64,000 nucleotides of DNA. Source: Glycocaulis abyssi (GTDB lineage: Bacteria > Pseudomonadota > Alphaproteobacteria > Caulobacterales > Maricaulaceae). The notes below the pieces were generated by a model. The model was not told where the DNA came from and did no database searches. It worked only from the letters and a program-made list of their open reading frames with translations. Shown here piece after piece: positions 3,016 through 30,639 of this stretch; positions within the stretch are counted from its first letter, which is position 1; every line of letters begins with the position of its first letter. Made by a program: the position numbers and the translations under genes. The stretch covers positions 2,567,001 through 2,631,000 of the forward strand of contig NZ_CP163421.1 in assembly GCF_041429775.1 (NCBI RefSeq), read 5' to 3'.

Positions 3016-3552
3016 ATGAAATCGGCATCCCTCGCGGCGATCATGGGACTGTTCGTGATTACCGGCTGCACTGCCGAAGAGGAGCGTGCGCCAGACTGGG
3101 TGGAGACACCGGAAATGGAGGCGGCGCGGCTCCTTCACGAGGCAGCGTGGGCGAACTGGCGTGACCCTCACGCACTTTACGATGCAGCCTGGCAAGGCAA
3201 TCTTGACGCTATTGATTGCGAAATAGCCAGCGACGAATGGCGCTTTGCCGCCTCTACCGGCTATGAGCATGTGGATTATTACCGGCTTCAAACAGGCTAC
3301 CGGCGATGGCAGGTTAGCGGGGAGCGCGATGAGCGCGCGCCTGCGGCTGCCCGGCGCATGCCGCGCTTCGAGGTGGCAGGCGAGGTGGCCTATCACAGCT
3401 ACCGCCTGCGCAAGGCCAGCAACCCCGATGAGCCGCTATTGCCCCACGATCCGTGCTGGGAGCTGAACGATATCCAGCTTGAACTGGTCCGGGTGGCGAT
3501 CCCCGATGAGGAGAGCGCCCCCTGCCTCGTAGGCTGGGGAATTGAGGAGTAA
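3016..3552 (+). CDS. Small hypothetical lipoprotein
   Basis: 178 residues. The N-terminus is a lipoprotein signal with lipobox VITGC, so the mature protein starts at Cys19 or thereabouts and is membrane-anchored. The rest is soluble, rich in Trp, Glu and Ala, with four further Cys residues (in DAIDCEI, DPCWEL and PCLVG) that could form disulfides. No family recognised. It follows the beta-lactamase-fold gene by 168 bases and converges on the D-aminoacylase gene with only 3 bases between the stops. Confidence 0.65.
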   Translation: MKSASLAAIMGLFVITGCTAEEERAPDWVETPEMEAARLLHEAAWANWRDPHALYDAAWQGNLDAIDCEIASDEWRFAASTGYEHVDYYRLQTGYRRWQVSGERDERAPAAARRMPRFEVAGEVAYHSYRLRKASNPDEPLLPHDPCWELNDIQLELVRVAIPDEESAPCLVGWGIEE

Positions 3553-21996: not shown

Positions 21997-23079
21997 GTGC
22001 GCGCCGACAGGGATGTCATCATTATCGGTGCGGGTCTGGCCGGTCTCATGCTCGCCGAACGCCTCGCACTGTCTTCCCAGCGCCAGCTGCGCGTGGAGGT
22101 GTTCGAACAGGCGCCGAGCCTCACAACCGCGCGGCGCAGCTGGAGCTGGTATGAGGCGGGTCGGCCCCGCACGGCGTTTGACAAGACCTGGACCCGCTGG
22201 GAGATGAGCGCGGCCAATCTGGCGGTTGCCCGCCCGTTCGCGGATGGCCGCTACGGCCTCTTGCGGGGTGAGGCGCTGGCCGGGCGGGCCTTGCAGGCGA
22301 TAGAAACGAGCCCGTCTGTCCGCCTGCGCCTGTCGGCAAGCGTTAGCGCCATAAGGTCCGCACCCGGCGGGGCTGTTGTCGAGACAAGTCAGGGGGAACT
22401 CAGCGCACGGATGGTGATCGATACCCGTCCGGGCGGGGCCGAGCTGCTCGACCGGGCGCGCTGGGTGCGCACTGGCATCAGGGCCGAAGTGCGTACCGGC
22501 TCGGCCTGCTTTGATCAGGACACCGCCACGCTGGTTCACCGCCTGCGCCGGGAGGATGGCGCGCTGACATTCGAGACCGTCCTGCCGCTGGCCGCCGACC
22601 ATGCCATTATCGAAGCTGTACGCATCGCCCGCTCAGGCGATGAGCGCCGGCCGGCCTTTGACCGGGCGGTGGAGCGGATCACCGGCGGTGTGGCCGCTGA
22701 CATCGGCATACGCATGCGCAGCGCAAGTCCGCTGGGTCTCTCCGACCGGTGGCCTGTGAGCGCCCGTGCCGTGCGTATCGCGGCTAGCCGCGGGGCCGGG
22801 CTTGCCCTTGCCGGGGCAACGGGGCGTGATGCCCAGCGTGGACAGGTATGGGCAGTCCAGGCTTTCGACGCGCTGGAGCGCGGCCGCGCATTGCCCGGCC
22901 TGCCCGCGCAGCCCTTGCTTGCCCGGCTTTCCTCCTATCTGCTGTTCAGGCGGCTTGCGGCCCGTCCTTCACGGCTGATCGCCATGGCAGAGCGGTCGCC
23001 GGGCGATTCGATCGTGCGCCTGGTGGGCGGAACGGCGTCACTGGCCGATGCCGCGCCCCTGCTCTGGGTGAACCGCTAG
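21997..23079 (+). CDS. Lycopene cyclase-like FAD protein
   Basis: 360 residues. N-terminal FAD-binding GxGxxG in [17 protein letters not shown], then SWSWYE, Y-x-L-x-R-G and [14 protein letters not shown], each recalling CrtY-family lycopene cyclases (HTWSFH, substrate-site and YTLPLSPTEALIE blocks). The C-terminal GGLFHPTTGYS-type motif is much altered ([13 protein letters not shown]). GTG 21997 is the only plausible start. No other carotenoid gene is nearby, so cyclase activity is uncertain. Its TAG shares the palindrome CTAG with the stop of convergent ilvD. Confidence 0.7.
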
Positions 23080-24767
23080 GAGCTGACGAACGGGAAGGAT
23101 GTCACCGCGCCGTCGGACGCTGATGACACCAGCGCTGCGTATTTGGCATAGGCACCGGACGGATAGCGCGGCGCTGGCGGCGTGAAGCCGCTCTTCATGC
23201 GCGTATCCAGATCGGCGTCGGTATCAATACGCTGGGCATCGACATCAATCCTGATCCGGTCACCATCCTTTACAAAGGCGATGGGGCCGCCCCGCGCCGC
23301 CTCCGGCGCAACATGACCGACCATGAAGCCGTAAGTGGCGCCGGAAAACCGGCCATCCGTAATCAGTGCCACATCATCGCCAAGCCCCGCGCCCTGAATG
23401 GCGGCCGTGACCGCCAGCATTTCGCGCATGCCCGGCCCCCCGGCGGGGCCTTCATAGCGGATGACGACCACATCGCCTTTCTGGATTTTCCCGGCCTGGA
23501 CAGCTTCAAAACAGGCATCCTCGCTGTCGAACACACGCGCCGGCCCTTCAAAGGACAGACGGTCATGGCCTGCCAGCTTGGCAACACAGCCCTGCGGTGC
23601 CAGATCACCATAGAGAATGCCGAACCCGCCGCGCGATTTGAGCGGTTTCTCCGCAGACAGAATAACGTCCTGCCCTTTGGCTTCCTCTGCGCCGGCAACC
23701 AGCCCGAACAGGGCGTCGCCGGTGATGGTGGGCGCGTCGGCGATGAGCCCGGCCTCCTTCAGCCGCCGGCCCAGCAGGGGCGAGCCGCCAGCCGCCGCCA
23801 TGTCGGGCGCCATATAGCGCCCGCCCGGCTTCAGATCGGCGATCACCGGTGTTGAGCGGGAAATGGCATCGAAATCATCAATGCCAAACGCGGACGGTTC
23901 CAGCCCTGCCTCGCGCGCTATCGCCACCAGATGCAGGACCGCGTTGGTAGACCCTGCGGTGGCGCTGACGGCCGCCGCAGCATTCTTCAGCGATTGCGGG
24001 GTGACGAACTGCCTGGCATTGCGCCCTTCGCGGAACGCTTCGACGACCAGCTCCCCGGCGCGCCGCGCGGCATCGGGCTTTCTGGGATCGGTGGCCGGAA
24101 TATCATTCAGCCCCATGGGCGACAGGCCCAGGAAGGTCAGCGCCAGCGCCATCGTGTTGGCGGTGAACTGTCCGCCGCACGCGCCCGCGCCCGGACAGGC
24201 TTGCCGTTCCACCTCGCCCAGCTCCGCCTCGCTGATCTTGCCCGCAGCGCACGCGCCGACGGCCTCGAACACGTCCTGAATGGTAACCGCCTTGCCGTGC
24301 AGTTTTCCCGGCATGATCGACCCGCCATAGAGAATGACGCTTGGCAGGTCGAGACGCGCTGCCGCCATGGCTGCAGCCGGAATTGTCTTGTCGCATCCGG
24401 CCAGAAACAGCACCGCATCGAGACAATGTCCGCGTACGGCAAGTTCAGCCGAATCTGCCACGCATTCGCGGCTCATCAGGCTGGCACGCATGCCTTCAGT
24501 ACCCATTGCGATGCCGTCAGTGACCACAATCGTATTGAAGTCCACCGGCGTTCCGCCTGCAGCGATAATGCCCTCGCGCGCGTGGTCGGCCAGCGTATTG
24601 AGGTGCATGTTGCACGGCGTGACACTCGTCCAGGTGTTGACGATGGCGATCATCGGCTTTGCCATCGCGGCGTTGTCATAACCGGCTGCGCGCAGCATGG
24701 CTCTGGCCGGTGCACGGCTCGGCCCTTCGATGAGGGTGCGCGAGGGAGAAGTCGGGCGTGTGGTCAT
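23076..24767 (-). CDS. ilvD: Dihydroxy-acid dehydratase
   Basis: 563 residues. It carries the iron-sulfur Cys motifs in [10 protein letters not shown] and [16 protein letters not shown] and the C-terminal [13 protein letters not shown]. It converts 2,3-dihydroxy acids to 2-oxo acids in the last shared step of valine and isoleucine synthesis. It is the last gene of the thr operon: its ATG immediately follows the thrC stop (TAA-ATG). This ties ilvD expression to the Thr/Ile-responsive leader at 28953-29018 rather than to the ilvC leader. Confidence 0.95.
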
Positions 24768-26087
24768 TTATGCGTATCCTGCAGACACTCTCGAAGAACG
24801 AAACGTACCGGCCAGCGCCCGCGACAGGGCGTTCATGTCCGCTGCCAGCTCGTCCATATGTGACGGGCGGTCAAGGACGGCCTTTAGCGGTGCGCTGGGG
24901 TCGATGGATTGCCCGATAAGGGGCTCCACCACATCGGCAAACTTGTAAGGGTGAGCTGTAGCCGCCGCTATCCAGACACGCTGCTCGCGCGCGGCCTCCG
25001 GCAGGCGGTGCCAAGCTTCCGCGGCAATGGCCGAATGCGGGCACCACACATATCCGGTGCGCTCGAAATCCGCGATTATCCGGGCGCGGATCGCATCATC
25101 ATCTACCCGTTCCACGCTGATCGCGCGCTGGTCTGATGCCAGATGATCGAGGCGCTCGAAATTGCTCGGCGTGCCGATATCCATCGCATTGGCCAGTGTC
25201 GCAACCGATGGCCGAGGCCGGTACACGCCTGTCTGGTTCCATTCGTGCAAGGTGGCATTGGCGTTGGTGGCAATCACCACCGGCCCGATGGGAAGACCCA
25301 TGGAGCGGGCATAGAGCGCCGCCAGACCATGGCCCAGATTGCCGCTGGGAATGATCAGGCCGGGCAGGGTGCCGCTTGTCCGCCAGACTTTCAGCGCCGC
25401 ATCAGCCAGATACACCATCTGGGGCAGCAGCCGCACGATATTGATCGAGTTGGCCGAGGTCAGCCGGAAGCGGCGTGTGAGCTCCTCATCGGCGAACGCG
25501 TTCTTGACCAGGGCCTGACAGGCATCGAAATCACCGCTCACCCGAAATGCCCGCACGGGCGCATTCCAGCAGGTCAGCTGATGTTCCTGGAAGGGAGATA
25601 CACGCCCCTTGGGGTACAGTACCGCCAGCTGTACGCCCTTGCGGCCCTCCGCCGCCTGCGCAGCGGCCCCGCCGGTATCGCCCGATGTCGCAACAAGCAC
25701 CGTAAACGGATCATCTTCGTCGGCGAGGCAGTCCAGAGCGCCCATCAGGAAGCGCGTGCCGAAATCCTTGAAAGCGCCTGTAGGCCCATGAAACAGCTCA
25801 AGCGCGCGCAGGCCCGGCCTTGCCGGATCAGGAATGGTCAGCGGCACCGGAAAGTCGAAAGCATTCGCGCACAGGGCTGGCAGATCAGCTTGCAGCGCAT
25901 CGCCCTCGAAGAACGGGCCAAGAAGCTGCGTAGCAAGCTCAGCGAGTGTGAGGCCGGGCTGGACATCGTCGGAACTGATGCGGGGCAGGGTCTGCGGAAT
26001 GAAGAGTGCGCCGCCGGGCGCGCTCCCCCGGCAGATGGCCTCGCTCAGGCTGGCTGACTGGCCGCCGCGCGTGGAGACATATCTCAC
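24768..26087 (-). CDS. thrC: Threonine synthase
   Basis: 439 residues, PLP-dependent, with the lysine in GPTGAFKDFGTRF and the phosphate-binding TSGDTGGAA. Converts O-phosphohomoserine to threonine. The frame is open to 26228, but the start is GTG 26087, which overlaps the thrB stop as GTGA and gives the standard N-terminus VRYVSTRG. Third gene of the operon, directly abutting ilvD. Confidence 0.95.
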   Translation of the reverse strand: MRYVSTRGGQSASLSEAICRGSAPGGALFIPQTLPRISSDDVQPGLTLAELATQLLGPFFEGDALQADLPALCANAFDFPVPLTIPDPARPGLRALELFHGPTGAFKDFGTRFLMGALDCLADEDDPFTVLVATSGDTGGAAAQAAEGRKGVQLAVLYPKGRVSPFQEHQLTCWNAPVRAFRVSGDFDACQALVKNAFADEELTRRFRLTSANSINIVRLLPQMVYLADAALKVWRTSGTLPGLIIPSGNLGHGLAALYARSMGLPIGPVVIATNANATLHEWNQTGVYRPRPSVATLANAMDIGTPSNFERLDHLASDQRAISVERVDDDAIRARIIADFERTGYVWCPHSAIAAEAWHRLPEAAREQRVWIAAATAHPYKFADVVEPLIGQSIDPSAPLKAVLDRPSHMDELAADMNALSRALAGTFRSSRVSAGYA

Positions 26088-27031
26088 CCCACCACCTCCG
26101 GCAGCGGTTCCAGTCTCGCCCCGCGGGAATTTATCGGCGCGTGATAGGCGTGTGCGGACTGGCCCTCTCTGGCGAAGGCGGCGCACATGGCAGCTTCGAC
26201 GGCGGCGTGGTCTGCCTCGGAGCACCATGCAAATATCGACGGTCCGGACCCGGAGAATGAGCAGCCTAGCGCGCCTGCCTGCAAGGCGGCGGTCTTCACG
26301 GCCGGAAGCGCTGGCAGAAGATATCGCCGCTGCGGTTCAACCAGCACATCGTCCAGCCCGGCGCGGATCAGATCATGCTCATTGGCGGCGCAGCCAGCCA
26401 CAAAGGCCGCCAGCCGCCGCGAGTGCTCGACAACCGTCTCCATAGCGACAGCAGGGCGCAATATCCCGCGTGCGGCGCGTGTCTCAATCTCCGCATCAGG
26501 ATGAACGACGATCGAGACCAGGCCCGATGGTGCCGGTATGCGGCGCACCTGACTAGCCTCCAGCCGCGCAGCGATCACCAGCCCGCCAAGCAGGCTTGCC
26601 ATCACATTGTCCCAGGGCGGCGGATCGGAGGATACCCGCTCGCCTTCAAGGGCGAACATCAAGAGCTCGGCTTGCGCGAACGGCGTTTCCAGAAGGGCAT
26701 TGACGGCCACTGCCGCCGCGACCGCCGATGCGGCTGAGCCGCCCATGCCCGCGCTCAACGGCACGCCCTTCTCAATATCCAGCCGTACCCCGAAACGGGC
26801 ACCCGCCGCGTCGAGCAGGGCCTTTGCAGCCGCCAATGCGGTATTGCGCTCAGCAGAGCCTGGCAGGCTTTTCACCCGGCCGGAAACCGCGCCGAGGCGC
26901 ACGCCGGGTTCTGCCTCACGGTGGGCGGTGACCACGTCCTGTAGCGTGTCAAACGCCTGGCCCAGAATATCAAATCCCGGTCCCACATTGCCTATGCTGG
27001 CCGGTGCACTCGCTCTGGCGATGTCCTTCAT
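26084..27031 (-). CDS. thrB: Homoserine kinase (GHMP family)
   Basis: About 315 residues. The N-terminus ASAPASIGNVGPGFDILG and the ATP loop PLSAGMGGSAASAVAA are GHMP kinase signatures. Phosphorylates homoserine for ThrC. Three in-frame Mets occur at 27058, 27040 and 27031; an AAGGAGAGG between the first and second favours 27040 or 27031, and I use 27031. Ends in a GTGA overlap with thrC. This is the enteric-type ThrB, not the aminoglycoside-kinase-like enzyme found in many alphaproteobacteria. Confidence 0.93.
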   Translation of the reverse strand: MKDIARASAPASIGNVGPGFDILGQAFDTLQDVVTAHREAEPGVRLGAVSGRVKSLPGSAERNTALAAAKALLDAAGARFGVRLDIEKGVPLSAGMGGSAASAVAAAVAVNALLETPFAQAELLMFALEGERVSSDPPPWDNVMASLLGGLVIAARLEASQVRRIPAPSGLVSIVVHPDAEIETRAARGILRPAVAMETVVEHSRRLAAFVAGCAANEHDLIRAGLDDVLVEPQRRYLLPALPAVKTAALQAGALGCSFSGSGPSIFAWCSEADHAAVEAAMCAAFAREGQSAHAYHAPINSRGARLEPLPEVVG

Positions 27032-27061
27032 CGCGCGCATCCTCTCCTTGCCGCCCATCGG

Positions 27062-28843
27062 TCAGGCCCTCAGCAATGCAGGGGCTCTGGACGGTTCCGA
27101 CGCGGCGAATTCCATCTTCTCAGGCTCCGACAGTCCGCGGTGAATGTCCATGATGTCTGCAAACACGGCTGCAGCCGTCGGCCAGCGCCCCGCGCCCTTG
27201 CCACACAGGGTTTGCACGCTGTGATCGGCGCAGGTGAGGATGAAGCGGTTCTCCTCGTTGCGCGCGCCCGCCAGAGGGTGCTGTGCCGGCACTGCACGCA
27301 CCCGCACTTCGGCTTTCACCTGCCCGTCGGCCGACAACTCGCAAACGCCGATCTGCTTGAAGACCAGCCCGTCTGCGCGTGCCGCCTTCACCGCCGCCGG
27401 GTCGGCCTGCGCAAGCGAATCCTTGGGTATACCGGCCGGGTCGACAGCCTTTCCGAACGCGGCCCGGATCAGCAGGGACAGCTTGTCGGCGGCGTCATGC
27501 CCGTCCACATCGGCGGCCGGATCGGCTTCGGCAAATCCCAGGCGCTGCGCCTCTTTCACTGCATCGTCGAACGCGTCCCCGGCGGCCAGCCGGTCCAGCA
27601 GGAAGTTCGCCGTGCCGTTCATCACGCCCTCGATCCGCACCGGACCATTATGTCCCCCACGCTGTTCCAGCGCTTCGAGAATGGGCGTGCCGCCACCCAC
27701 CGCCGCGCTGAAAGCGAGCCGGGCCGCTCCCTCGCGCGTTGCGGCGTGAAGCGCGTCATAATGGCGGGCGAGAGCCGCCTTGTTGGCGGTGACAACATGC
27801 GCGCCGCCGCTCAGCGCACGGGCCATGATTTCTGCCGGGTGGTCCGCGCCGCCCAGCAGCTCGACCACCAGATCCGGCTTGCCGGAAAGCGCGAGGCCAA
27901 GCTCATCGGTAAAGCGCACGCCGTCCTGATGGGCACGGGCTTCCGGGCGGCGTACCAGAACCGGGTTCAGTTCAAACAGGTCCGGGCGGGAGCGCAGATG
28001 TGCCAGCACTCCCGCACCCACCGCGCCGCAGCCCAGCAGAGCGACACGCAGGCGCCGCACGGGCCGCGCTGGTGCCTTGCGGGCCGGAGCCGCGCAGATT
28101 CGGGTGGCCTCACCGGCGCCCATGGCCGCGATCTCGATGACGAGATTGGCGGCCTTCGCCGCGGCGATGGCCTTGGGCTGTATCAGGCCCGCGCTGACAT
28201 CGGCGGCAGCGTCATAGTCCAGCTCTGCATAGCGTTCTGCCTGCGGGTTCTCGGCCGGATCTTCTGCGTAGACGCCATCAACATCCTTGATCAGCCGCAC
28301 GCGCGCCGCGCCGCATCGCGCCGCAAAGAAAACCGCCGTCAGGTCCGTACCGCCCCGCCCCAGCGTGACCGCGCCAAACCGGGCGTGCACCGCAGTAAAG
28401 CCCGGCACGGCCAGCACTTCGTGACAAGACAGGGCCTCGGCGACTGCCGCATTGTCCAGACCGCACAGATTGGCGTCCAGCGGATCGCCTTCAGCTTCCA
28501 GTCCGATTTCGTGTGGATCAAGAACAGCCGTCCGCACGCCCACCCGTCCCAGCGCCAGACCCATGAGGGCGGCAGAGCGCAGCTCGCCCACCCGTGCAAG
28601 GCGCGCCATCATCGCGGCATGGGGCGTGGCGCCGTTTCCGCCGACAAGCTCGCCTTGCGCCAGCAGGGCATCGGTTTCGCCGGCAAGCGCGGAAACCACC
28701 GCAATGACTTTTTCGCCCCGGCGGACATGCCGGAACACTTCCTGGGCGGCGGCGTCGTAATCGGCGTCGCACTGCAGGACCGAGCTGCCGAATTTGAGCA
28801 CGCAAAGCGGCGGCGCGCCGGATTTCATGGATTGGGGTTTCAT
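27062..28843 (-). CDS. thrA: Bifunctional aspartate kinase / homoserine dehydrogenase, ACT-less
   Basis: 593 residues. Residues ~13-255 are an aspartate kinase domain (KFGSS in place of the usual KFGG(T), TLGRGGTDLTAV, KDVDGVYAEDP). Residues ~270-590 are homoserine dehydrogenase (LLGCGAVGAGV Rossmann loop, TANKAAL, GVMNGTANFLLD, EADPAADVDGHDAADKL). Enteric ThrA is ~820 residues with tandem ACT domains between the two; here only a ~15-residue linker is present, so allosteric control by threonine through ACT domains seems impossible. AGGA precedes ATG 28843. First structural gene after the attenuator. Confidence 0.92.
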   Translation of the reverse strand: MKPQSMKSGAPPLCVLKFGSSVLQCDADYDAAAQEVFRHVRRGEKVIAVVSALAGETDALLAQGELVGGNGATPHAAMMARLARVGELRSAALMGLALGRVGVRTAVLDPHEIGLEAEGDPLDANLCGLDNAAVAEALSCHEVLAVPGFTAVHARFGAVTLGRGGTDLTAVFFAARCGAARVRLIKDVDGVYAEDPAENPQAERYAELDYDAAADVSAGLIQPKAIAAAKAANLVIEIAAMGAGEATRICAAPARKAPARPVRRLRVALLGCGAVGAGVLAHLRSRPDLFELNPVLVRRPEARAHQDGVRFTDELGLALSGKPDLVVELLGGADHPAEIMARALSGGAHVVTANKAALARHYDALHAATREGAARLAFSAAVGGGTPILEALEQRGGHNGPVRIEGVMNGTANFLLDRLAAGDAFDDAVKEAQRLGFAEADPAADVDGHDAADKLSLLIRAAFGKAVDPAGIPKDSLAQADPAAVKAARADGLVFKQIGVCELSADGQVKAEVRVRAVPAQHPLAGARNEENRFILTCADHSVQTLCGKGAGRWPTAAAVFADIMDIHRGLSEPEKMEFAASEPSRAPALLRA

Positions 28844-28889
28844 GGCGGTTTCCTGTCTCGTGCTGGTAGTCGGGCTGGGTTCAAGGCAT

Positions 28890-28921
28890 GAAAAAACCCG
28901 CTCGCCGGGTGGGGAGCGGGT
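28890..28921 (-). terminator. Attenuator terminator of the thr operon
   Basis: On the minus strand ACCCGCTC and GAGCGGGT form a perfect 8-bp stem (28921-28914 with 28903-28896) around a 10-base loop, followed by a run of T. It sits between the leader peptide stop (28953) and thrA (28843). The 5' arm can instead pair through CCGCTCC (28919-28913) with GGAGCGG inside the leader ORF (28970-28964), giving a competing antiterminator. Confidence 0.85.
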
Positions 28922-28952
28922 CGGTTTGGTGTGGTGAGGTTTATCTGCCTCG

Positions 28953-29018
28953 TCAGACCATATCCGCTCCGCCCCCGGTACCGCCGGTGGTGGTGATGAT
29001 GGTCGTGATAATGGTCAT
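28953..29018 (-). CDS. thrL: thr operon leader peptide (Thr/Ile-rich)
   Basis: A 21-codon ORF, beginning MTIITTIITTT and ending in a Gly-rich tail GGTGGGADMV: seven Thr and four Ile codons, clustered as in enteric ThrL. The stop is 32 bases before the attenuator stem. Stalling at the Thr/Ile run when charged tRNA is scarce would favour the antiterminator and expression of thrABC-ilvD. A Shine-Dalgarno sequence is weak. Called from codon composition, position and the downstream alternative stems. Confidence 0.8.
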   Translation of the reverse strand: MTIITTIITTTGGTGGGADMV

Positions 29019-29386
29019 GTGCGGGGCAGACAGAACGCCGCCATCACGGGTTTCAAACCCGTGCGAGGCATTCGTGCTGAAGGCGCTCATCGCCTGCATC
29101 TGTCTGGCCCTTTATCCGTGGCAACCCGCATTGCTGCGGCTGCTAACTGTCGACGAGCTTCGATGCAAAACGCACATCGCGTCAAACAGAAATTTTGCCT
29201 GGCGAGTGATGTTTGCGGCGTTTCGCATGATAACTATCAGAAATTATTGGATAAAAAATTTAACATACCACCGGAGAAATTTTCTCTTGCACTTTTGTTG
29301 CGCTTGCCTCACGGTTTTCGCAGATGCGAGACACGTTTGTTTCGCACCGTCGCAGCAGCCTGATCGGGGCTGCAGGGGAAACAGGT
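29019..29386. promoter_or_regulatory. Divergent promoter region between the thr and ilv leaders
   Basis: About 370 bases with no convincing gene. It holds a perfect 19-base inverted repeat at 29045-29063 near the thr leader, and an AT-rich stretch (about 29160-29300) unlike the GC-rich surroundings. Both leader transcripts must start here. I could not fix the -35/-10 boxes with confidence. Confidence 0.6.
29045..29063. repeat. Perfect inverted repeat upstream of thr leader
   Basis: CACGGGTTT, C, AAACCCGTG: nine-base arms around one central base, 27 bases before the thrL start. No T-run follows on either strand, so it is not a standard terminator. It could be an operator or a 5' UTR hairpin. 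Confidence 0.6.
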
Positions 29387-29527
29387 ATGAGCCGCCGCGC
29401 CATTGCCATGGCTGACCGCGCAGAGCGCGAGACCCGGACACGGATGATTGCCGTGACCGGTCTCATTACGCTCGTACTTGTGATTGTACTTACCATTCCC
29501 ATACCGGGAGCGGTTGTCCCTGCCTGA
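29387..29527 (+). CDS. ilvL: ilv operon leader peptide (Leu/Val/Ile-rich)
   Basis: 46-codon leader starting at ATG 29387 after AGGGGAA with a 6-base gap; ATG 29444 is an alternative giving 27 residues. The C-terminal half [20 protein letters not shown] has 14 branched-chain residues in about 22, and the IPIPGA ending recalls enteric IlvL. It is followed within 30 bases by a strong terminator, then ilvC. Ribosome stalling on Leu/Val/Ile codons would free the terminator's 5' arm to pair with the GGGAGCGG at 29506-29513 inside this ORF. Confidence 0.82.
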
Positions 29528-29554
29528 CGGTCCGAAAAAGACCTGAAATGCAAG

Positions 29555-29590
29555 AACCCCCGCTCCCACCCGGAAGCGGGGGTTTTCTTT
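29555..29590 (+). terminator. Attenuator terminator of the ilv operon
   Basis: AACCCCCGCT (29555-29564) and AGCGGGGGTT (29575-29584) form a perfect 10-bp stem with a 10-base loop, followed by TTTTCTTT. CCGCTCCC (29560-29567) in the 5' arm and loop is the exact complement of GGGAGCGG at 29506-29513, the predicted antiterminator strand in the leader ORF. ilvC starts 33 bases later. Confidence 0.88.
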
Positions 29591-29622
29591 TGCGCCAAGC
29601 GCACACCAAGGAGACCTCGAGA

Positions 29623-30639
29623 ATGCAAGCCCGGATTTACACAGACAACGATGCCAACCCGTCCGCGATAAAGCCGGGGCCGGTGGCCATTATCGGTTAT
29701 GGCAGTCAGGGCCGCGCCCATGCGCGAAACTTGCGCGACAGCGGCCATGACGTGATCGTTGGCGCGCGTGCTGGTGGCCGGGCGGCGGCTACGGCGAAGG
29801 GTGATGGCTTTACGGTGGTTAGCCCGGCGGAGGCCGCAAATGCCGCCTCGCTGATCGCGCTTTTAACCCCCGACATGTCCCACGCCGAGGTCTACACGCA
29901 TGATATTGCGCCCAATATGAGCGCTGGCGACGCGCTGCTGGTCGCGCACGGATTTTCCATCCATTACGGCCAGATCCAGCCTGCGAAAGACGTGGATGTC
30001 ATCCTGGTTGCCCCCAAGGGGCCGGGCGATCTGGTGCGCCGCGAGTTTGAGCGTGGTGCGGGTGTGCCGAGCCTGTTTGCCGTCTGGCAGGATGCGTCCG
30101 GCAAGGCGCGTGACAAGGCGCTGGCCTATTGCGCAGGCAATGGCGGCACGGCCGGCGGCGCCATCGAGACCACATTTGCCGAGGAAACCGAAACCGATCT
30201 GTTCGGCGAACAGGCCGTCCTGTGCGGCGGAGCGAGCGAGCTGGTCATTGCCGGCTATGAGACGCTGGTGGAAGCCGGATATCAGCCTGAAATCGCCTAT
30301 TTCGAGTGCCTGCATGAGCTGAAACTGATCGTCGACCTCATGTATGAGGGCGGCCTCGCCAAGATGCACAGCTTCGTGTCGGAGACCGCCAAATATGGCG
30401 ATCTGGTCTCAGGGCCGCGCGTCATCAATGCCGAGACCAGAGAGCGCATGCGCGAGGTGCTGCGCGATATCCAGACCGGCAGCTTTGCCCGTGACTGGGT
30501 GCTGGAAAATCAGGCGGGCAAGCCGCGCTACGCAGCCTTGCTGCGCGAGGATCTCGATCAGCCGATCGAGCATACCGGCGAGCGCCTGCGTGCGCGCATG
30601 GGCTGGCTGCAGCCCGGCGCGAATGCCGGTCAGGCGTAA
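29623..30639 (+). CDS. ilvC: Ketol-acid reductoisomerase (short, class I)
   Basis: 338 residues, the short class I form. NADP Rossmann loop [18 protein letters not shown] and the C-terminal knotted domain with [19 protein letters not shown] (metal-binding Asp/Glu). Converts acetohydroxy acids to dihydroxy acids. The frame opens at 29548 inside the attenuator, but ATG 29623 preceded by AAGGAG is the start. First structural gene of the ilvC-G-M-leuA-ilvE-leuC-D operon. Confidence 0.96.

Follow-up and report, generated by a model that had tools for sequence, protein, structure and literature searches.

The thrABC-ilvD operon of Glycocaulis abyssi, carried by the 64,000-nucleotide stretch analysed here (the window), is very probably controlled by a ribosome-mediated transcription attenuator. 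The parts of this device, their order and their recurrence in relatives come directly from the sequence; translation of the leader, termination and the response to starvation are what we infer. The original prediction of such an attenuator is strongly supported by the recurrence of the leader, by a folding switch point, and by the restriction of Thr/Ile-rich tails to terminators lying ahead of fused thrA genes.

The operon lies on the minus strand. Domain matches identify its first gene, thrA (27062-28843), as an aspartokinase-homoserine dehydrogenase fusion without ACT domains. The product has 593 residues, over which kinase, NAD-binding and homoserine dehydrogenase domains are matched, and is 82% identical to ThrA of Glycocaulis albus and 85% identical to that of another genome of the same genus. 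It is followed by thrB, homoserine kinase (26084-27058; NF002288, 305 bits over a cut-off of 194), thrC, threonine synthase (24768-26228; TIGR00260, 220 bits over 167) and ilvD, dihydroxy-acid dehydratase (23076-24767; NF002068, 734 bits over 644). The coordinates given for thrB and thrC are those of the longest ORFs, which overlap, and their true starts are unsure. ThrA is not of the E. coli type (bifunctional enzyme I), matching NF006959 at 186 bits where the cut-off is 726, and a scan of 21 homologues, window included, over their matched ranges gave no ACT family with E of 0.01 or less. In E. coli ThrA the allosteric feedback resides in the ACT domains, so that for an enzyme lacking them RNA control may be the main feedback.

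Upstream of thrA, the minus strand from 29018 to 28953 encodes MTIITTIITTTGGTGGGADMV*, in which seven codons are for Thr and four for Ile. Ten successive Thr/Ile codons (TIITTIITTT; 28986-29015, minus strand) make up the control block, which matches the antitermination zone of the folding model described below. The original prediction took the ORF to have 21 codons; its Thr and Ile content stands, but the leader is probably longer, with 48 codons. An in-frame ATG at 29099, with AAAGGG at 29113-29108 upstream of it, gives a putative leader ORF of 48 codons plus stop (28953-29099, minus strand), the length also found in the close relatives L003, L032 and L048, and all four forms have Shine-Dalgarno-like matches of 4-5 bases. 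No Shine-Dalgarno-like sequence was seen by eye ahead of the ATG at 29018, which is ATC in L003, GTC in L048 and ATG in L032. Over the whole leader set, with the start chosen by Shine-Dalgarno match, a length of 40-50 codons was obtained for 52 of 61 leaders and a match of at least 4 bases for 40 of 61; L047 and L050, with 20-21 codons, appear to be short forms. The leader peptide is not conserved, and in 264 codon comparisons among four Glycocaulis the first, second and third codon positions differ 64, 68 and 65 times, without third-position bias, so this comparison provides no independent proof of leader translation.

A pause hairpin at 29045-29063, within the leader ORF and 5' of the control block, was considered and rejected as too weak (mean z -0.49 over 61 leaders, with p≤0.05 in 6 of them). 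The same positions hold a 19-base palindrome, CACGGGTTTGAAACCCGTG; hairpins are common at this place across the 61 leaders and are weakly supported.

The remaining parts of the switch follow the control block on the minus strand. Segment 2, GGGGGCGGAGCGG (28964-28976), lies within the leader ORF and is predicted by duplex and folding calculations to pair with segment 3, CCGCTCC (28913-28919), which has an invariant core and is common to the antiterminator and the terminator. The terminator hairpin, formed from segments 3 and 4 and supported by both sequence and fold, occupies 28891-28922; its G+C-rich stem (28922-28895) begins about 30 bases past the leader stop and is followed by T to 28891, the hairpin carrying six T in all. 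GGAGCGG at 28970-28964 is exactly complementary to CCGCTCC at 28919-28913. Both the T-tailed terminator and the exact 7-base alternative pairing of the original prediction are thus present in the window sequence, the pairing being not significant when the window is taken alone (p 0.18 against dinucleotide shuffles, p 0.083 against synonymous recodings). The region as a whole is more strongly structured than expected, 29018-28888 folding at -46.2 kcal/mol compared with -36.1 for shuffles (z -3.0; none of 200 shuffles was as good).

The effect of the ribosome was modelled by folding the RNA that is left free with the ribosome at each codon, the ribosome being taken to cover 12 bases counted from the start of the A-site codon; folding was at equilibrium, without kinetics. 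When the A-site lies within codons 2-11 of the 21-codon ORF, which is the Thr/Ile block, segment 3 is predicted to pair with segment 2 at 0.81-0.89 and with segment 4 at no more than 0.08. The modelled share of the terminator is 0.12 at codon 12, 0.98 at codon 13 and 1.00 from codon 14 to the stop; in the naked leader, without a ribosome, it reaches only 0.62. In this equilibrium model the switch point lies at the end of the Thr/Ile block, and the window leader is calculated to form an antiterminator that is mutually exclusive with the terminator and depends on ribosome position.

We propose the following mechanism. RNA polymerase would transcribe the leader, whose ORF of about 48 codons ends in the Thr/Ile run followed by the G-rich segment 2. 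When charged tRNA-Thr and tRNA-Ile are ample, the ribosome would reach the stop codon and cover segment 2, leaving segments 3 and 4 to form the terminator, and transcription would end before thrA. When threonine or isoleucine is short, the ribosome would wait in the Thr/Ile block and segment 2 would pair with segment 3; no terminator would then form, and thrA, thrB, thrC and ilvD would be transcribed.

The arrangement recurs in relatives. Sixty records were surveyed, namely the window, 5 kin and 54 named loci (L002, a copy of the window, was left out, and the kinase-domain relatives L086-L110 lay outside the survey). An ORF stopping 21-40 bases ahead of a CCCGCTC...GCGGG-T terminator is found 5' of fused thrA in 50 of the 60. 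The leader ORF with its Thr/Ile codons, which the original prediction had expected relatives to share, is indeed there: a Thr/Ile/Met-rich tail with the terminator precedes fused thrA in 49 records, the fiftieth being L071, and among 14 further sphingomonad-side loci a similar pattern finds a leader in 12. One more (L164) was found by eye and was used in the control-codon, tree-pair and Met-count sets only. The pattern finds no leader in 10 of the 60 records (L073, L075-L080, L082-L084), and none in L165. The ten include Parvularcula and Marinicaulis, in which thrA is not followed by any thrB or thrC match and the upstream sequence looks, by our own reading, like the end of a PLP-enzyme gene. 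In L071, the chromosome of Sphingomonas rhizophila, the leader frame misses its stop and thrA is matched as two separate pieces, from either decay or sequence error.

At E 1e-100 or better, with up to three candidates scored per genome, fused thrA was found in at least 1 of 386 genomes class-wide (its own) and in at least 3 of 396 genomes in the order of L081, own included; in near kin the counts were 11 of 120 and 15 of 118 genomes.

The best surviving alternative, which we nevertheless consider very unlikely, is that the hairpin is a plain intrinsic terminator that blocks transcription entering thrA from elsewhere, and that the Thr/Ile-rich ORF is no sensor. The hairpin is terminator-like and has a T tail, and 20 of 61 leaders, lacking any antitermination zone, favour the terminator at every ribosome position tested in the equilibrium model. 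Against this, the upstream gene is divergent, so that there is nothing obvious to terminate, and the switch point calculated for the window falls where the Thr/Ile block ends. The distribution of such tails also speaks against it. The window and the 54 loci (1.27 Mb, both strands summed) contain 94 terminator-like sites, a background made up mostly of thrA neighbourhoods and chosen for thrA rather than at random. ORF tails with at least seven Thr+Ile in 14 codons number 38, and 37 of these are in leader position before fused thrA; the remaining one (L080) is about 0.3 kb before it. No other terminator in these 55 records has a Thr/Ile-rich tail. The L080 case, at about 570-720 of a Phycisphaerales record, is a Thr/Ile-rich ORF (IETTTTTTIIEPRSG) with a terminator.

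The same model was applied across the leader set. With the ribosome at the stop codon, the equilibrium model favours the terminator in 59 of 61 leaders, and an antitermination zone is predicted in 41 of 61. Thr, Ile and Met codons account for 250 of 382 codons inside these zones and 391 of 1081 outside, a contrast whose Fisher p should be read with caution since the 61 leaders are related; shared ancestry likewise means that all p values over the set are overstated. L071 was left out of the folding, duplex, pause-hairpin, tree-pair and Met-count sets because its Met/Thr-rich frame misses the stop, and in L181 a shifted terminator start, taken by pattern, distorts the folding and duplex rows.

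Pairing between segments 2 and 3 was assessed by duplexes calculated for each sequence, since the register in which MAFFT aligns segment 2 shifts from genus to genus and counts of column pairs would mean little. The duplex of the ORF tail with segment 3 beats its own shuffles (mean -13.5) in 53 of 61 leaders, and the 2:3 duplex beats other windows of the same leader (mean -8.0) in all 61. Mean energies are -19.1 kcal/mol for the terminator hairpin and -16.3 for the 2:3 duplex, and the duplex is at least as strong as the hairpin in just 13 of 61 leaders. Kinetics, with 2:3 forming first, must therefore matter in many of them. All 50 aligned rows have the same segment 3 (CCCGCTC) and the same segment 4 core (GCGGG). 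Changes in segment 2 are one-sided only: of the 61 leaders, 9 have GGAGCGG, 25 have its wobble variant GGGGCGG, 14 match over a shorter stretch, and 13 have no match of 6 or more. Two-sided covariation of the stem is not demonstrable because segment 3 does not vary, and this invariance is expected if segment 3 must pair with both segment 2 and segment 4.

A small hairpin 3' of the leader stop (28936-28951, minus strand; GAGG/CCTC) does vary on both sides in the Maricaulaceae, where the arms are GAGG/CCTC, GCGG/CCGC or GGAAT/ATTCC. It is better than the shuffle mean in 45 of 62 leaders, with p≤0.05 in 19. From these sequences it appears convincing in the Maricaulaceae only, and is unsupported in sphingomonads. 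Its conservation there could be taken to favour a metabolite-binding riboswitch or a protein-bound leader to which the ORF is incidental, as could the best Rfam match along the leader strand, Atu_C7 at 28890-29033 (18.5 bits of the 45 needed, E 0.096). We give this possibility very little weight, marginally less than the plain terminator: no Rfam family reaches threshold in 28500-29800, a search of 13 relatives gave no match at E up to 1, and what recurs is the codon content, which differs where gene content differs. Equally improbable is a main role in translation coupling, or in trans as a peptide or small RNA comparable to rnTrpL and peTrpL of Sinorhizobium meliloti, in place of attenuation of thrA. 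Alphaproteobacterial attenuator RNAs and leader peptides can have second roles of this sort according to the available text of PMC10117765, but here the peptide sequence is not conserved, and a terminator with an alternative pairing lies between ORF and thrA and recurs in relatives.

The original prediction attributed isoleucine sensing to the presence of ilvD in the operon, and this explanation is not supported by comparison. ilvD follows thrABC on the same strand in records of Glycocaulis, Oceanicaulis, Marinicauda and Alkalicaulis; in Maricaulis and the named sphingomonad thrABC loci no ilvD was found after thrC on that strand (some of the contigs are short), and their leaders still carry Ile codons, 2-4 in most sphingomonads. 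Threonine is the precursor of isoleucine, and this explains the Ile codons better than ilvD does. In the window, ilvD does fall under the same predicted switch.

A second leader, absent from the original prediction, precedes the divergent ilvC-ilvG-leuA run on the plus strand. Its ORF has 46 codons plus stop (29387-29527) and an end rich in Ile, Leu and Val. Segment 2, GGGAGCGG (29506-29513), is complementary to segment 3, CCGCTCCC (29560-29567), which forms part of a putative terminator at 29555-29588; ilvC itself (29623-30639) starts at ATG 29623 behind AAGGAG. An Ile/Leu/Val-rich leader is found in 18 of 30 ilvC loci, each with GGAGCGG, and is absent from 12. In the equilibrium model the window ilvC leader has no antitermination zone, the terminator being favoured at 0.88-0.89 at each of 27 positions, and it is anatomy and recurrence that suggest an attenuator here. 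The window genome also has a second ketol-acid reductoisomerase gene (G000:C1:1104736-1105698), 43% identical to the window ilvC.

In many relatives the control codons of the thr leaders include Met. Homoserine dehydrogenase genes were counted by PF00742 in 63 genomes, and Met codons in a 16-codon window of the leader; L061, an incomplete genome, was left out, and split homoserine dehydrogenase matches in L071 and L069 were read as one gene each. At least two Met codons are present in 22 of the 28 leaders whose genome has just one homoserine dehydrogenase, compared with 1 of the 33 from genomes with more (p 8e-8, which is overstated because the leaders are related). Three other Met windows gave p from 1e-7 to 3e-7 for the same contrast in the same related leaders. 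The difference appears within separate groups: mean Met counts for single and multiple enzymes are 3.0 and 1.0 in Maricaulis, and 2.56 and 0.50 on the sphingomonad side. The remaining leaders outside these two groups show no difference (means 1.0 and 0.58), and L051 and L069 are exceptions, having a single enzyme and no Met. A quickly built ThrA tree shows 8 changes of the enzyme label. Five independent pairs on starred branches gave on average 3.3 in agreement, 0 opposed and 1.7 that do not differ (median p 0.25, an underpowered test); with a threshold of three Met, 1.6 agree and 0 oppose. It is concluded that an association of Met codons with the single-enzyme state is suggestive, but unproven.

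In the window genome, outside the window, a second homoserine dehydrogenase opens a run (L189 3124-6393) with ORFs that we read as MetX-like and PLP-enzyme genes. A SAM-II match ahead of it scores 28.8 bits (E 1.2e-4), below the threshold of 36. In L165, a SAM riboswitch (3371-3486, plus strand; RF00162, 82 bits) lies on the strand opposite the fused thrA, which has no Thr leader.

Three leaders have no thrB match behind thrA, and two of these, L081 and L182, have a control window rich in Met and devoid of Ile. In L081 (4792-8886) a leader containing MTAMMMMMTAM (six Met) precedes a fused thrA, after which come MetX (382 bits over 296) and a cystathionine gamma-synthase, metB (TIGR02080, 558 bits over 505); no thrB or thrC match was found within its 11.7 kb. 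Its leader is a candidate methionine attenuator. L182 has five Met (AAMMMMAAMRM; L182, L185) before a fused thrA followed by a glutaminase gene. In these two loci, the control codons differ where the gene content differs. They fall in different starred groups of the ThrA tree, L182 being flagged as a long branch. The third, L164, keeps its Thr/Ile codons and has two Met, and so leaving thrBC is not sufficient by itself.

On balance, we lean slightly towards a single RNA chassis, consisting of a leader ORF and fixed segments 2, 3 and 4, that has been re-tuned through its control codons. These would be Thr and Ile in genomes that, like that of the window, have a second enzyme for methionine; Thr, Ile and Met where the fused enzyme is alone; and almost purely Met in forms that would have arisen twice (L081 and L182). 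The codons would then name every amino acid supplied by way of the homoserine dehydrogenase in question. Leaders of the Met type would be methionine attenuators worked by the ribosome, and the switch may take the place of the feedback absent from the ACT-less enzyme. Should the methionine result hold, the end products that a branch of a pathway has to supply can be read from its leader codons, and a change of attenuator specificity becomes directly testable by codon swaps. This apparent re-tuning is the part most deserving of experiment. The wider interest lies in some 60 diverged leaders built on one chassis, with codons that apparently follow gene content.

Our searches of open-access papers turned up no description of a thr attenuator in these lineages, and part of it may be in the survey of proteobacterial attenuators by Vitreschak and others (2004). 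The available text of PMC2965389, PMC1273637, PMC1183508, PMC1262725, PMC10117765 and PMC6230763 contains neither a Thr leader in these lineages nor a Met-codon attenuator. RNA-level control of methionine genes in Gram-negatives is represented there by SAM-II riboswitches (PMC1273637) and the 5' UTR of the Xanthomonas met operon (PMC6230763). The available text of these two describes no Met-codon leader peptide, whereas in L081 and L182 a leader ORF would be the sensor of charged tRNA-Met. Also known in alphaproteobacteria is an ilvB leader peptide for branched-chain genes (available text of PMC1273637). The window ilvC leader is alike in kind, a likeness drawn without sequence comparison, and differs in preceding ilvC-ilvG-leuA, divergently from thrABC-ilvD. 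SEP5 of Sinorhizobium meliloti, a small ORF in a 5' UTR with six Thr and three Lys codons, has been proposed as a leader peptide (available text of PMC10117765). It resembles the window leader, by description, as a Thr-rich alphaproteobacterial small ORF, and differs in being Thr+Lys and in belonging to a different gene.

The thr attenuator is thus a known kind of device, seen here in lineages for which we found no description of it. The closest known system is presumably the enteric thrL, the gammaproteobacterial thr operon attenuator that we take Rfam Thr_leader to represent. Both have a Thr/Ile-rich leader ORF and an antiterminator that competes with a terminator, ahead of thrABC. Thr_leader has no match at E up to 5 in 28500-29800, nor at E up to 1 in the 13 relatives, and it is concluded that the window leader works like the enteric thr attenuator but is not a member by the Rfam models. 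The E. coli thr leader has eight ACC codons (available text of PMC1183508). The system described here differs from the enteric one in its leader of about 48 codons, in having ilvD after thrC, in an enzyme without ACT domains, in the post-stop hairpin of the Maricaulaceae, and in the Met codons carried by many relatives.
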